Part shown: piece after piece, positions 2,561 through 58,343 of the stretch | How positions within the stretch are numbered: position 1 is the first letter of the stretch | How the letters are laid out: the number at the start of each line of letters is the position of its first letter | Program-made: the position numbers and the translations under genes | NCBI RefSeq assembly: GCF_030253575.1 | Contig: NC_080564.1 | Location: 28,422,561 to 28,486,560 of the forward strand | From: Rhododendron vialii | Lineage: Eukaryota; Streptophyta; Magnoliopsida; Ericales; Ericaceae | DNA: 64,000 bases | Direction: 5' to 3' | The notes under the pieces: model-generated | Database searches by the model: none | Seen by the model: the letters and a program-made list of their open reading frames with translations, nothing else | Told to the model about the DNA's origin: nothing

Positions 2561-5267
2561 GGAGAAGATGAGAGCGGGGTATTTTGGACATATCACTTAA
2601 AACAGGGCTTATGCAGAATAAGTTTGACAAGAGGTGGGTTTGAATGGATAGGAGAAGACGAAATAGGGCCGGCCAGATAAATCCCCTAAAAAAATTACTA
2701 AAAATATTGGGCTAAAGTACAAAAACAGTGCCTATTGGGCCATTTAATCCGGGCTAAGTTTTTGTAAGAACCGGAATCCATTATTTTATAAGTTTTACTG
2801 TGTTGGGTCCTTAAATGGACAAAAATGTCCCCGATCTAATAGGATCGTTGCGCTCTCTCTCTCTCTCTCTCTCTTTGAAACAGATGAGGATGGACGGGTC
2901 TTTGGCTAATGCTCACCACATGGAACGTCAGAGGAAACTTACCTGGCTGCAACGTAGGAATTCAAGAGGCAACGTGGCTCTTGTTGAAGTTTTTTACCAC
3001 TCAGATATAATACGGAGTAATAGCGTAGGAACATTATTATGAGTGATGTGAACATAAAATGAGTGTAGGAATATAATACTAGTATTTCAAATGGAAACTT
3101 GGACACTTCAAGACTACTTTACGGTGATTTTTACTCCATTTTATTTTATTTTGAAGGTTCAGCAAAATGTCAAGCTTTTTTTTGGTTTTGAGAATTCCAG
3201 GTGTCCTATTTGGATCAATTTGATGCTCAGTTATTCACTCCATAATGTAACAACTTGCATTATTTTATGAGGAGTGATTTTGCCACTCAATTTTTTGTTA
3301 ATGTCAGTCTCTTTTGTGTTCTGATTAGATGATTTGTTTTGTGAGAGAATGAGAGTGACATTAACAAAAAGGAGAGTGGAAAAATCAATTCCCTACTTTA
3401 TTCTATGTTCTTTGTTGGGGTTGAGTTCTGTGGTTGGCAGCTTGCCATCTGCTGTCTCTCCCCTGTAGTTTTAGGTGGGTAGATGATTGTTGAGGTATGT
3501 GTGTGTCAACTAACATAGTTGGGATGCTAGGCCTTTGTTGTGATTCTTTTTTTTTTTTTTTTTCTTTTCCCTTTGCTCCCTTCAATTGCTGTAATCTTCT
3601 TTGATGATTAATGAAATCTTTTCTTTTGCCAATTGAAAAAATATTAAAAAGAGTGGAAAAAATTATAAAGAGTTTGGATTTGTACAGATAACCAAATCTG
3701 TTAATTTATTGCGATTATAAAGAGTATATATTTTGCATAGATATCCTTCTATGTTGGTCATTTGGGAACAATACAGAGTATAGAGTTTGACAGATAACCA
3801 CATATGTTGATTTTATTGCGAATATACATAGTGCATATTTTACTAAGATAACCATATCTTTTGTCATTTTATGATAATGAAAAGACTTGAACAGATAATT
3901 ATATTTGTTTTTATTTGTGTGTTTTGTATATCATATATATAACGTTATCTGTATGTGTTTATTTGTGTTATTAGAATGACAAAGTAACACATACTTGCAA
4001 GAATACTGAAAGATTCACATTTTGATGGAAATATACTTAAAATACTAATACATTTGGCACACACCTCCTAAATTATGGGGGAAAAAATTAGCATAAAACA
4101 ATAAGATTACACACACAACAATAGGAAGAAATAAAATTGCCACAAATAGCAATATCTCTGTTACTTTATTTTATAAAGAGGTAAAAAATAGATTTGGCAC
4201 TGATATCTTTTGTTTTTCTAGACTATACTGAGAATAAACTAGCGCATACTCCCTCCGTCCCATAAAGTTAGTAGAAGGTTATCTGTGTATTTATTTGAGT
4301 TATTAGGATGAGCAACACATATAAGATAATTTGTTTGTTTAGTGTCACACATATTATGTTGTTTGTATGTGTTTATTTGTGTGATAAAGTAACACAAATA
4401 ATAACACATATAATGTTATCTGTTTCTTTTGTGTTACACAACGTTATCTGCATGTGTTTATTCGTGTAACAAAATAACACGTGTAAAGTTATATGTTTGT
4501 TTTTGCATATGACAATTTTCCAAAAAATAAAAAAAAGAATTCTTATTGGCTTGTTAATTGATATTTTTGTTGTGTGCTAAAAGGTTTTGTTTGCAAGGTG
4601 AAATGTGTAAATTTAAGGAATATTAAAATGGTTAATGGGACCTGTATAGTAAGCTTTTTACAACCAAAAAAGATTTAAAAAAAGAAAAATTCTAAAATCA
4701 GTTCAATGGGCTGACAATAGTAAGTAAGTAAATGTTTATTAAATGGTGTAAAAGGTTCGCAAAAATATATGTTTTTCTTGTCTTTTAGTGTGTTTATCGT
4801 CAACCCATTGTGCTGACAATAGTAAGACCTTTTAAAAAAGAAAAAAAAAGAGAGCCAAAAATGATTTGATCTGCCATCAAATTGCAGTAGACGAAAAAAG
4901 AGGCTTGGTTCTTTAATTCTTCTGACATCCTCCCTCTTAAATGCCTTGAAATGGAAAGCAATGGAGGCTGATACAAAATCAGTCCACAATTGTTGTCATC
5001 ATCATCAAATAGAAGAGGAAAACCCTTGTTTTTGTTTTTTGATCCGAAAACCCCTTGTTTGTTGGATATATAAATATACTACCAGCTTCGAGTTTCAAAA
5101 AAGGGTTCTTCTACTATCAGCCCAGAGGGCTGACTATAGTATCATACACGCGCGCAACATTTTGTACTTTGCCGCGTGTCAAAATTTTGTACAGGCTCAC
5201 TGAACTCAAATCCTCGTCTTTCTGCCTTCTCTCTCTACTAAAGTCGTACCCCACTACCCCTTCTACT
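2561..5267. other. Intergenic DNA with simple and degenerate repeats
   Basis: No gene seen. It holds a (CT)n tract at 2853-2874, a poly-T tract near 3547-3563, and at 3660-4500 degenerate AT-rich repeats of phrases like cagataaccatatctgtt and gtgtttatttgtgttat. A lone Stowaway-like terminus (ctccctccgtccca) is at 4250-4263. Confidence 0.6.
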
Positions 5268-53000: not shown

Positions 53001-53852
53001 GCTCCATTTGTAGAGTAAACAATTGAATTTGAGACTGCAAGCACAAAGAACATTCTAAGCAAAAAAAAATTAAAAAAATCATGCAACTGAAAATTTTCAA
53101 ATCTCCAAGTACTTCTCCTTTCTAGTCACCTATTTTTCCAACTTCTTCACTTCCTCCTTATCGCATAACATTTGTTTTAAAAGAAAATATAAATGAGGCC
53201 CTCACCTATTTATGCACCAATCGAGAAGTCTAGAACACTCTCATGCTTTCCAACTATTCCAATATAGAATTATATAAAAATATCTATGCAAGTCTAGAAT
53301 TGTATACAATAATCCAGATTATTCTAAGAGATAGTTCTACAAAAGTTTCTAGAATCCTTCAGGATTCCACACTGCTCCAGAGAACTCAAAAAAGTTCTAG
53401 AAAAACCTCTTAAGTTTTGGTGGGATGCATGCTAGGTGTTTGCCAAAATGCCTAAGTGGTGATGTTCTCCCCCACGTATTGCGGTGATGCCCTCATCGTG
53501 GCATCTTCATGGAACCTCTAGATCCCCAATTGCCATAGTTTCTCATTCGGTTCCTAAGTCGTCTCGCACTCCAGTTGTCCCTTCCATTTCACCAAGTACT
53601 CATGACGAGGAGTGTAGCATTTCTTTGTAAAAATACAACCGGCCATAATGTACTCCACCTCCTTGTGGTGAGATGTAGTGATCTTTATTGGCGCTTGGCT
53701 TGACTCGCCTCTACTTGGATCCCCATTGTCTACGTGGTAAGACTTCAAGCAACTCACTCGGAACACCGATTGAATCTTGAGTCGGGGTGGCAACTCAATC
53801 TTGTAAGAAACCAATCTTGTAAGAAACCTTGCCTACCAGAAATGGTCCCTAG

Positions 53853-54209
53853 TGTTGGAAATAGTAATCCATAATTTTCTTATTAATTGGGGATGCATGT
53901 ATCTCAAGTAAGATACATGATAATGTTTAGTTTTATCACATTGGGAGATGTAAAGTCATCTAGGGAATAGTGATTCATCCTCTAGATTAATCCATGTAGT
54001 CCTATAAAAGGACGTTCTATGTTATTGTTTTAATAAAATGGTAATACAATCAGAAATACTATTAGAGTCATATTCTCTACAATCAAGCCCTCTTTGGTAA
54101 AGTTATAGTTATATAGGAGCTCTGTAGGGCTCCGCCCCTACATCTCCACAAACTTCTTTGTTTTCTTTTCTTTTATTATTTGCTTCCGCTGTCCCCAAAA
54201 ATTCCAACA
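53853..54209 (+). repeat. 5' LTR of the dsRNA-binding retroelement
   Basis: 357 bp, TG...CA ends. The putative Pol II TATA box (54003-54009) lies 23 bases before the polyadenylation-type AATAAA, a compact promoter/terminator layout. LTR differences from the 3' copy cluster near 54110-54190. Confidence 0.93.
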
Positions 54210-54441
54210 TGGTATCAGAGCGGGTTGCGTTCATTATCTGGGCATAATCAAGTGATTCCATTCCTACCCCCTATTACTTTTTGTGCTCAACCTCATAAAT
54301 GTTTTTTGCCTGCATCATCTGTATTTTGAAAATTTAAAAAAAAAATGTTCCCATGATCTAATGCAAAAAGTTTTTTAGAAAAATCAAAAATTTCATGGTA
54401 GCCAATTGCTACAAAGTTTTTAAAAAAAATGCCAAAAGGCA

Positions 54442-55029
54442 ATGAGCATGTTGGGAAGTCGATCTTTTTTTGCTTCTCCAAAAAGAAATTTGGGCTTGTC
54501 AAATGACACCCAAAAAATTAAAGGGAGCCAATCTCCCAACAACAAAAAATGGGCCGCAGCCAAATTGAAAAATTGTTTGAGTGTTCAACTATTTTGCAGG
54601 ATCATGGAGAACCAAAATACGACCGTCGTCGTCAAAATTTCATTCAAGAATCTCTTGAACGAGATTGTGGAAAAATTCCACATCGCACCACCAATGTGGA
54701 AAACCTACCAAACTGTAGGGAAAAAATTCTTGGCAAGTGTTGAGATTCGAGATAATGCTGTTGAAGGCGGTTCAATCATACTTCACAGCTCTCCTCACAC
54801 AAAGAAGATTGATGCAGAGCAAGAGGCGGCTAAAATTGCTATTGAGCACTTGAAGGATATGTTCAATTTTGAAGTTTATGATTTCAACCTTCATGACAAG
54901 GAAATGTATCGTCAACATCTCGAACAAGTTGACTTCGCGTTGGTCGAAGCACTTCAAGAAAACAAGGCTCTCAAGGATGAAATTGCAAAAATCCAGACAA
55001 AGGCAAAGGATGCGAAAATTATGAATTAA
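54442..55029 (+). CDS. dsRNA-binding-domain (DRBM-like) protein encoded by an LTR retroelement
   Basis: 195 residues from 54442, or 141 from the in-frame ATG at 54604 (MENQNTTVVV), which I favour because conservation starts there. Residues 67-139 fit the double-stranded-RNA-binding fold: helix 1 FKNLLNEIVEKFHI, PMWKTYQTVGKKFLASVEI (strands 1-2), GGSIILHSSPHTKK (strand 3 and the KK patch) and helix 2 AEQEAAKIAIEHLKDM. The KK before the second helix and the AEQ.AA..A...L pattern are the strongest marks, and the KK contacts the RNA backbone in known DRBMs. Residues 155-190 (VDFALVEALQENKALKDEIA) form a charged helix, perhaps a coiled coil. The ORF is open although nothing else in the element is coding. 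It resembles plant DRB-type proteins and was probably captured from a host gene. Activity unproven. Confidence 0.8.
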   Translation: MSMLGSRSFFASPKRNLGLSNDTQKIKGSQSPNNKKWAAAKLKNCLSVQLFCRIMENQNTTVVVKISFKNLLNEIVEKFHIAPPMWKTYQTVGKKFLASVEIRDNAVEGGSIILHSSPHTKKIDAEQEAAKIAIEHLKDMFNFEVYDFNLHDKEMYRQHLEQVDFALVEALQENKALKDEIAKIQTKAKDAKIMN

Positions 55030-55036
55030 GGGGGGG

Positions 55037-55390
55037 TGTTGGAAATAGTAATCCATAATTTTCTTATTAATTGGGGATGCATGTATCTCAAGTAAGATAC
55101 ATGATAATGTTTAGTTTTATCACATTGGGAGATGTAAAGTCATCTATGGACTAGTGATTCATCCTCTAGATTAATCCATGTAGTCCTATAAAAGGACGCT
55201 CTATGTTATTGTTTTAATAAAATGGTAATACAATCAGAAATACTATTAGAGTCATATTCTCTACAATCAAGCCCTCTTTGGTAAAGTTATAGTTCTGTAG
55301 GAGCTCTGTAGGGCTCCGCCCCTACATCTCCAAAAAGCATCTTTGTATTTCTTTTATTATTTGCTTCCGCTGCCCCCAAAAATTCCAACA
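55037..55390 (+). repeat. 3' LTR of the dsRNA-binding retroelement
   Basis: 354 bp, matching the 5' LTR apart from scattered substitutions and a small indel near 55335-55350. It follows the polypurine tract directly, seven bases after the ORF stop. Confidence 0.93.
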
Positions 55391-55679
55391 CCTAGCTCAT
55401 AGCAGCAGACAAGTCCTTTGTGATGGGGTCTAGTAGACTTGTGTTGTGACAAAATTAACTTCGCCATGATTAAGTCTTCAATGGTATACTCAACATGTCT
55501 CCGCTTCTCAAAATAAACATAAACTTCAGTTGGAAACTAATAGGTCTTCCTTCTTCCTTTGCAATGCGAGACTGTAAAAAAAAATCAATGTGAAAGTGAG
55601 AAGTACGCGAGAATTTTCAAATTAGACTGAAACGAATTGGTAATGAAATTCAGAAAACTATGAATCGAAGGTCTCTTTT

Positions 55680-56440
55680 ACATCTCCAGGCTCTTATTCT
55701 ATATGTATCATTTCTGCCTCAACCGGTATTACCTCACCAAGCTCTCACTCTCGTCTATTCTATAACGATGTTTTGACGGAATCTAGCAAACTCGATGATA
55801 GTCTTCCTGCATGAGATCCATGAGAACTCGGATTGGTTTGTTGAGATCAAGAGACATAACCACACGATTAACAGCATCTCTTTTTTCTCCTTGAGACCTC
55901 TTACCTTATTAGCAGCATCTCTTTCAATCCTAAATTCAAGCCTAACCACACGATTAACAACTTTTCCAACTGGATCAAGGCCTTGTTGAGTTTTTGCCTC
56001 TTTCTTCTCAACATGAGAAGAAGCCTCGATCATCCTTCGAAGGTGTGTCAAAGCTCGGTTGAGCAGAAGGGATCGAGCTTTGACGCACCTTCGAAGGATG
56101 ATCGAGGCGAAGAAAGAGGTAAAACTCAATGAGGCCTTGAATCAGTTAGAAAAGCTGCTAATCGTGTGGCTAAGCTTGAATTTAGGATTGAAAGAACTGT
56201 TGTTAACAAGGTCGGAGGTCCAAACTATGATTGCATCAAACATCGAGGAGTAGAATTTTCTTATGTCTCTTGATCTCAACAAACCAATCCGAGTTCTCAT
56301 GGATCTCATGCAGGAAGACTATCATCGAGTTTGCGAGATTCCGTCAAAACATCGTTATAGAATAGACGAGAGTGTGAGCTCGGTGAGGTAAGGTGGTTGG
56401 TTAGGTAGACATGATACGTATAGAATAAGAGCTCGGATGT
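55680..56440. repeat. Long near-palindrome with coding-like arms
   Basis: The left arm 55680-56057 is the reverse complement of the right arm 56074-56440, separated by a 16-base loop (56058-56073). Pairing is very good at 55736-55855 against 56268-56375 and next to the loop, and weaker in the middle, where the right arm has small deletions. Minus-strand reading of the left arm gives VEKKEAKTQQGLDPVG and NRVVRLEFRIERDAANKVRG, a charged helical protein of unknown family; the right arm encodes the same with frameshifts. It looks like an inverted duplication of one exon, as found in natural hairpin-RNA loci. Confidence 0.88.
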
Positions 56441-58343
56441 GTATGTTAGTGCTGGTCCGTTTTTGTTTTCTGTTTAGGGAGGCGTGTTCATTAAAAAAAA
56501 ATGATCATGTGCTTCGCGTTCCATTGACTTTTGATTTTAGGTTTACCAATTTCTCATCGCTATGCAATAATTAATGTTTTCTACAGTATGTTTGAGGAAT
56601 TTGAGGTCTCGTTTCGGATCAACTTCAAGAATCCTGTACAACTAACAATTAAGTTTCGGCCAGGATGGATGTTTTTTGGTCTTAATTAAGAAGATTAAGA
56701 CAAATTACGATACAGTGGAAACTGATGATCTTGTGGAAGGAAAAAACGTTAGAAGCCCCTCTTTGAGTCTAGACAATTTCATATTGGCAATTTTATTCCA
56801 AAGAAAATTTTTACTTATAGCCCAGGTGAGTCTTTGAGCAATTTCGCATTACAGAATCAAAGTTGAAGGCATTCTAAAGCATCATTGGCTTGTTAAACTT
56901 CTTGGAAGAGGTAAAACTCACGCGATACATATAGGAATCACTAAGAGTTTCTATCATTGTTAGTTATTTGGGTTGGGTCTAGCTTGCTGTATTGTTGACC
57001 ATAGCTAAAGCAATTTTAGACTACCTCTTGAACTTGACTTTTGACCCCAATCCCTCGTTCATTTGTTTGGAAAATTTTGTGTTGAGAATTTTTCCAAGGC
57101 AGTGAGAACATAATATTTTTCAGCGTGTTAACCATTCGAATGCTTTGTCGTCTGTTCCAATAGGGGCAGTACTTATTACTTAACTATCGTACTTTGACCG
57201 GAACATTCACCTTTTGAACACATTATTTGTTTGTTCAAACTCATGTTGGTAACTTGGTACACTAATTCCTAATGCATATCCTTGCCAAAAACTTTTGGAT
57301 TTTCTTTCCTAGCTCTAATAGACTTTCCTATGTTCAATATATCTTTGTGGTTTCCGAAGGTCAGGGGTGATCTTCGTTGTTCACCAAGATTGGGTCGATC
57401 TTTGTGGTTGCTACTGTGAGTGAAAACGAGAGACTATGGATCAGGGTAATTCGTATGCATTTAGTAGTTTGGCATGTAAATAGAAATGTGGAGATTTCGG
57501 TTGATTGGTTGGCTGGTGTAGTTAGTAGCTAGGAAAGAGGAATGCTTGAAAGACACGACGTGTTGGGAAGATTGCTGCTATTGACTTGGTAGAGTCTTTG
57601 GTATCAAGGGGTTTTGCAAGTATTTATATTACTAGGATTGGTTGAGCCCATGATTTTTTCCTGAGTTTGGGTTTGCTACGTGCAAAACTTTTCATTTGTT
57701 ATTGTAGTTTATTTCTTTTACATGTTTTGTTTGATTTTTTTACAATTCCTGTCAGTTTGTGAGCTGAAAATAGCAGATGGTAGTTCTAAGCTTATTCTGA
57801 TTGTTGAACTTCAGTTGGCAATTTCGTTCCAAAGTGAAAACATGAGCTTACCTTGTGTAGAAATTTTTTCACGTTTGACCCCTACCCCTCGTTGATTTGT
57901 TTGGAAAAAGCTTTCTGGACTATGTGTTAAATTTTTTTCGAAGGAAGTGAAAACATTATCTTTTTTTTGCGAGTGAACCATTCAAACACTTTGTCATCCG
58001 TTCCACCAGGGGCAGTTCTTAATTGTAGTACCTTGACCGAACGTTCACCAATGGAAAGCGCACCATTTGCATACATTTTTTGTTTGTTCAAACTCATGCG
58101 TTGGACATATTTAGATGTGTTTCAGTATGTGTTGGTAGAAACATTGGAATTTCAGGGATTCCAATAGTGTTTAGTTTCGGTCTCCCAGAAAAGGAAACAT
58201 AAACAAACGTTTTGGCCGTCCTGATGAAACGAAACCAAAATTTGTCTCTTGGTTAGAACTCCATCCCCCCCTCCTCCTCTCTATCTGTCGTAACGTTATA
58301 ATAAGTTCATGTTCTAATGGACCCCTTGTGTTAAAAATTGAAG
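56441..58343. repeat. Intergenic DNA with a duplicated block (57040-57250 and 57880-58100)
   Basis: Phrases cgttcatttgtttggaaaa, ccattcgaatgctttgtcgtc, aggggcagtacttatta and tttgtttgttcaaactcatg recur about 840 bases later with 10-20 percent differences by eye. It lies upstream of the MATE exons. I could not identify MATE transmembrane exons in it. Confidence 0.6.

Follow-up and report, generated by a model that had tools for sequence, protein, structure and literature searches.

A small, old lineage of LTR retrotransposons in Rhododendron vialii whose sole gene encodes a protein with a predicted dsRBD fold

What kind of mobile element carries a protein of the double-stranded RNA (dsRNA)-binding type as its only gene, and why would such a gene be kept? 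The question arises at positions 53853-55390 of a 64,000-nucleotide (nt) stretch of Rhododendron vialii DNA (NC_080564.1, 28,422,561 to 28,486,560; the window), where a preliminary description made from the letters alone had placed a long terminal repeat (LTR) retroelement with a dsRNA-binding open reading frame (ORF). We find that this element belongs to a small and old lineage of non-autonomous LTR retrotransposons, with at least ten copies in the genome and a second, divergent family. Its sole gene encodes a protein with a predicted dsRNA-binding domain (dsRBD) fold and a helical tail, and has been under long-term purifying selection. RNA silencing is a main plant defence against transposons; suppressors of it are, to our knowledge, well known from plant viruses and hardly from retrotransposons. 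An element consisting of LTRs and one dsRBD-type protein is a minimal, testable case, and the predicted structure of the protein points to the possibility that a genomic parasite brings along its own means of handling or evading RNA silencing.

The element is complete, and the intact LTR pair, primer site, polypurine tract and perfect duplication named in the preliminary description are all borne out by the coordinates. On the forward strand, a 5′ LTR of 357 nt (53853-54209) is directly followed by the primer-binding site (PBS) TGGTATCAGAGC (54210-54221), which we take to be of the initiator tRNA-Met type. The PBS opens an AT-rich leader (54210-54603) with many indels between copies, followed by the ORF of 141 amino acids (aa; 54604-55029), the polypurine tract GGGGGGG (55030-55036) and, abutting it, a 3′ LTR of 354 nt (55037-55390). 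Both LTRs have TGTTGG...CCAACA ends, and the 5-bp duplication CCTAG lies on the left (53848-53852) and right (55391-55395). The two LTRs differ by 15 substitutions in 354 aligned sites (Kimura two-parameter distance 0.0436), giving an age of ~1.7 million years (My) at a plant rate of 1.3e-8 substitutions per site and year.

Paired TG..CA LTRs, PBS, polypurine tract and target-site duplication identify a class I LTR retrotransposon, and several dispersed copies with duplications of their own attest to its mobility. It lacks the gag-pol ORFs of autonomous Copia and Gypsy elements: the internal region measures 827 nt, and the dsRBD-type ORF is the longest ATG-ORF in it. In TRIM elements the LTRs are short (about 100-250 nt) and an ORF is missing, whereas here the LTRs have 357 and 354 nt and the ORF is conserved. 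No retrozyme-type hammerhead was matched in 53700-55500 (Rfam, up to E 10), and the Rfam search gave no match above any family's cut-off. TRIM, LARD, TR-GAG and retrozyme elements share with this one the two LTRs, PBS, polypurine tract and absence of pol; none of them is known to have a dsRBD ORF as its defining feature. Collections of viral and prokaryote contigs yielded no relatives, and none of the matches listed from the open-licence literature describes a dsRBD ORF in a non-autonomous LTR element.

Called mechanically, the longest ORF spans 54442-55029 and 195 aa. We corrected this to the conserved 141-aa protein starting at ATG 54604; the preceding 54 codons lie inside the leader, which is indel-rich among copies, and two R. 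simsii gene models, P0001 and P0004, disagree over this part. When the internal region was shuffled with its dinucleotides preserved, an ATG-ORF of ≥195 codons arose in 1 of 2000 cases and one of ≥141 codons in 28 of 2000, so ORF length by itself is moderately surprising at most and the weight rests on conservation. The dsRNA-binding likeness proposed earlier holds: the window ORF matches the Pfam dsrm profile (PF00035) just over the cut-off (24.3 bits, cut-off 23, E 4.8e-5), and the structural model has the alpha-beta-beta-beta-alpha fold of a dsRBD (about residues 11-88) followed by a long predicted C-terminal helix (94-140). Of the 10 aligned members, 5 have a dsrm match at E up to 1, and the window ORF is among these. 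The best fold matches of the predicted structure are the dsRBDs of plant DRB7.2, DRB4 and DCL4, which differ in being host genes and show ~20-22% identity in the top rows. Sequence searches of solved structures gave nothing significant.

How widespread is the element? A protein search of the genome (532.6 Mb, 13 contigs) gave 20 matches, and several copies do exist, as had been anticipated. Ten better-preserved loci on 8 contigs (L001-L010) have LTR sequence flanking leader and ORF on both sides, with one LTR incomplete in L005 and L008-L010; L011-L013 are further degraded copies. The ORF is not absent or broken in all other copies, the pattern that the preliminary description had linked to chance capture: it is fully open with its ATG in four of the ten (L001-L004), L008 is stop-free with the ATG lost, and L010 is stop-free with a GTG and a two-codon deletion. 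Duplications of 5 bp flank L001, L002, L004, L005 and L007, and none is clear at L003 or L006; the outer 5′ LTR ends of L008-L010 lie outside the compared stretch and hence outside this count. LTR ages range from 0.11 My (L003) up to ~6.2 My (L010, 194 sites). Named protein relatives occur in R. simsii (P0001, P0004, P0005) and R. griersonianum (P0002). Searching with the LTR gave 47 matches, with 40 of 45 candidates scored; among 39 checked, 25 had an ORF match at most 1.5 kb away and 14 had none at that distance. These 14 are single LTRs or pieces, one inverted pair, a split-off piece of the L008 LTR, and L032 and L040, with 5-bp duplications at several (L033, L034, L035, L037). At L032 and L040, two same-orientation LTR pieces lie near each other with no leader or ORF match, as remnants or tandem pieces. 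The inverted pair (G000:C5:10896564-10897295; L019, L023) encloses only the ORF end and polypurine tract, has a CCATC duplication outside, and looks like an autointegration product.

A second family shows that the arrangement is old. L014 (C2:33345740-33346168, minus strand) has an open 143-aa ORF in the same layout that is 29% identical to the window ORF (33.2 bits; best of 2000 shuffles, 13.0). Its LTRs of ~405 nt start with TGTTGGA, end with CCAACA, are accompanied by the TGGTATCAGAGC site, and are homologous to the window LTR (score 97 versus 55.5 for 500 shuffles, sd 7.4, maximum 87), with the segment GGAGCT...ACATCTCC common to both families. Its flanking pentamers, GTTTA and GTGTA, agree at 4 of 5 positions, and the LTR age is ~4.4 My (26 of 245 sites). 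In neutral simulations, the ORF was stop-free at the L014 protein distance in 1 of 2000 runs at a transition/transversion ratio (kappa) of 2 and in 6 of 2000 at kappa 4. A further, degraded fragment of this family is L076. P0009, a 189-aa protein, is 33% identical over domain plus helix. We had considered L014 as a host donor gene and dropped this, as LTR-like repeats and a PBS surround its ORF. The 5′ LTR of L014 is split by a later insertion of ~3 kb, around which a 21-nt direct repeat (reverse-complement positions 957-977 and 4003-4023) resembles the long target-site duplications that LINE-type insertions leave.

Is the ORF kept by selection? Every comparison involving L009 or L010 gave a Nei-Gojobori ratio of nonsynonymous to synonymous change of 0.28-0.47; for pairs of young copies the range was 0.19-0.87, with one pair undefined. 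Under a pairwise codon model that includes kappa, the corresponding ratio, omega, was 0.39-0.56 against L010 (six of nine possible pairs computed, all p<0.05), 0.32-0.36 for the four open copies against L009 (all p<0.01), and, in the six pairs of open copies, 0.38-1.14 (6 of 6 non-significant). Additionally, a tree test on all ten copies rejected omega=1 (p 0.0013); it uses IQ-TREE likelihoods, gives no omega value, and takes the null kappa from a grid whose edge (5) was reached in the two smaller copy sets. Since all these tests draw on shared branches, they are not independent of one another. Across the eight young copies we counted 0 gap intervals in the 423-nt coding sequence, 20 in the leader (389 nt) and 10 in the 3′ LTR (347 nt), with mean pairwise differences of 0.043, 0.071 and 0.075, respectively. 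Since A/T runs in the leader may inflate its indels, the 3′ LTR is the fairer comparison for the coding sequence. A BLOSUM test on the protein relatives alone was weak and mixed (ends of P0006, P0007, P0009 and others trimmed in one version). The ORF has thus been under long-term purifying selection, with the signal in deeper comparisons and not within young copies.

Several observations weigh against the explanation favoured below, a protein that interferes with silencing of its own RNA. The tree test without L010 was marginal (p 0.06), and in the eight young copies alone omega=1 was not rejected (p 0.44) and first codon positions are more variable (0.061) than third (0.044). Of the earlier statement that the open ORF reflects selection or recency, selection beyond recency alone stands for long-term maintenance and is not demonstrable in these eight youngest copies. 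Four of ten copies are interrupted by one stop each (L005, L006, L007, L009), and L005 and L007 share a CAG to TAG stop at codon 131; a shortened ORF may have been mobilised, or the change may have arisen twice in a CHG methylation context. By eye, the public relatives P0006 and P0007 appear frame-shifted at one end (ends trimmed). At 18.9 and 15.2 bits, P0009 and P0010 stay below the cut-off of the dsrm profile, and neither P0001, which is full-length and 82% identical, nor P0005 has a dsrm match at E up to 1. Type A (RNA-binding) dsRBDs carry GPxH in loop 2 and KKxAK at helix 2; in the window family the loop-2 motif is missing and the helix-2 KK motif shifted, which sets it apart from type A, and P0009 has no helix-2 lysines, while L014 retains GLDH and TKKGAEQ. 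The dsRBD fold matches include domains that chiefly bind proteins, and likeness of a predicted fold is no demonstration of function.

The RNA could be made in two forms. The 5′ LTR contains a TATA-like CCTATAAAAGG at 54001, a donor-like TTTG/GTAAAG with its GT at 54097, and a hairpin-like segment GGAGCTCTGTAGGGCTCCGCCCCTACATCTCC. Between the presumed transcription start, 30 nt past the TATA-like box, and the ORF lie 12 AUGs. In all 11 family members shown, the start codon is immediately preceded by CAG/GATC (window: AG at 54598-54599), with TAG/GGTGAGT as the L014 counterpart. All eight copies whose 5′ LTR was shown (L002 and L007 not among them) have the donor-like GTAAA there; the site reads GTACTT in L014 and is lost in the 3′ LTRs of L008 and L010. 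Splicing from 54096 to 54600 would delete the PBS and 11 of the 12 upstream AUGs.

What might the protein do? As a whole, an element lineage whose ORF product interferes with silencing of its own RNA is the best explanation, and we put it somewhat short of an even chance. The LTR promoter would give one RNA. Unspliced, this would serve as the genome, which an unrelated gag-pol element would copy in trans through its proteins; once splicing had joined the donor-like LTR site to the acceptor-like one before the ATG, and so removed the PBS and 11 of 12 upstream AUGs, it would be translated. The protein, perhaps a dimer via its helix, would act near its own RNA and hinder Dicer/DRB processing of element dsRNA, either by shielding the duplex or by docking on DCL4/DRB4-type partners in the fashion of DRB7.2. 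Action on the silencing of its own transcript is the most likely role. Such interference would help the producing copy, and the ORF would be retained for this reason. With this role or with the packaging role considered next, the benefit must go mainly to the copy that makes the protein, as ORF-less copies would otherwise have replaced it; those seen in this genome are single LTRs, the inverted pair and the LTR clusters L032 and L040. The more specific proposal, in which a DRB7.2-like dsRBD protein is the sole cargo, comes from a spliced transcript and blocks or diverts Dicer/DRB processing in cis, as a transposon-encoded silencing suppressor in a lineage split at 29% protein identity, is more doubtful.

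The main rival makes the protein a packaging factor or chaperone: the dsRBD would bind structured parts of the element RNA, such as leader and LTR hairpin, while the helix would oligomerise the protein, which would act like a minimal nucleocapsid and take the RNA into a helper's particles. This would suit the sole gene of a two-LTR element with a long predicted C-terminal helix, and the LTR R/U5 plus leader RNA (54035-54640) folds more stably than 20 of 20 dinucleotide shuffles (z -3.6). The GGAGCT...ACATCTCC LTR segment kept in both families is likewise consistent with it; however, covariation in the LTR hairpin pairs was not above shuffles, the Pfam matches of the window ORF include no gag, and single dsRBDs usually have no sequence specificity. 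We regard packaging as rather unlikely.

A selection signal in deeper comparisons that is absent from young copies is also what an inherited accessory gene would leave, if the ORF had been selected in an autonomous ancestor and the small derivative retained it through lack of time; passages of PMC7264820 report additional ORFs in plant LTR retrotransposons. Both distant families, however, already have no gag-pol between their LTRs. A pattern of LTR end plus PBS gave 53 matches, of which 30 were fetched with ~1.5 kb on each side; by blastn these comprised 9 known copies, the partial L057, which has 52 nt of the LTR end and a portion of the leader in common with the family, and 20 loci without shared LTR or leader. 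By eye, L057/L075 showed no gag-pol-like ORF in 7.7 kb, and no gag-pol element with the family LTR was found among the matches listed, the 20 non-sharing and 23 unfetched loci not having been searched for gag-pol. We judge inheritance less probable again than packaging.

Could the ORF instead be a host DRB fragment, captured neutrally and open by chance or youth? Among the matches listed at E≤1e-3, own-genome protein searches gave only members of the element lineage. The dsrm profile gave 45 genome matches, 0 at element copies; the donor sought among them was not found, as the 17 compared with the element domains (20 fetched) reached 11.8 bits at best, and the relation to DRB7.2 is one of predicted fold. 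Three dsrm matches on C3 repeat with identical scores at a spacing of exactly 44,600 bases (G000:C3:6708701-6713446 and 6753301-6758046), which points to a host DRB-type gene present twice or to a duplication made in assembly. That plant LTR elements capture genes is documented (PMC7264820), and this genome holds another repeat with a captured piece: L094-L096 (C11:5875858, C5:19664745, C1:32434874), a separate repeat with at least 3 copies that are 96-98% identical over 783 nt, carry a captured DRB-like dsRBD piece with stops that by eye closely resembles host exon L080. They give a picture of unselected capture, whereas the element ORF is the opposite, open and distant from all 17 host dsRBDs compared. 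Young copies show no significant selection, as capture would allow, but omega well below 1 against older copies, an ORF without indels in the eight young copies and the openness of the ORF even in a family with 29% identity leave neutral capture, already disfavoured, very improbable.

Known systems offer partial parallels. Plant LTR elements with additional ORFs, including the Tekay 5′aORF of sunflower, maize and sorghum, likewise have an extra conserved ORF, and the maize and sorghum 5′ORF models show a weak Foldseek likeness to a DRBM protein (TM 0.35-0.37), according to PMC11728184. The Phalaenopsis Gypsy elements with an AlkB RNA demethylase described in PMC9289625 are alike in keeping an RNA-acting protein and differ in being ~25 kb long. 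That work screened 121 angiosperm genomes for extra domains in reverse transcriptase-bearing elements, and its section on non-canonical domains does not name the dsRBD; with reverse transcriptase as its marker, elements like this one would escape it, a blind spot of all screens so baited. VANC of VANDAL DNA transposons is likewise transposon-encoded and counters host silencing, but these are sequence-specific proteins of a DNA transposon (PMC10398659), whereas here an RNA-binding-type fold is predicted from sequence. DRB7.2 with DRB4 is reported, in a passage of PMC8138440, to sequester dsRNA precursors processed by DCL3. A term search of a 2026 gene-capture review (PMC13317346) gave no passage on dsRNA or DRB. 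Should the protein prove to bind dsRNA or DCL/DRB partners, it would show that counter-defence is open to retroelements as well; should it package RNA, the element would be a one-protein parasite of other elements' particles.

Two features border the insertion. Just downstream, 55679-56443 forms a long foldback with arms of 131 nt that are 98% complementary (55729-55859 / 56261-56391) and further arms besides, and a transcript of it would be a long hairpin. Beside the insertion, on the minus strand, an ORF at 53554-53814 contains an EYLVKWKG stretch that by eye resembles a chromodomain remnant, and the window element may sit inside an old Gypsy relic.
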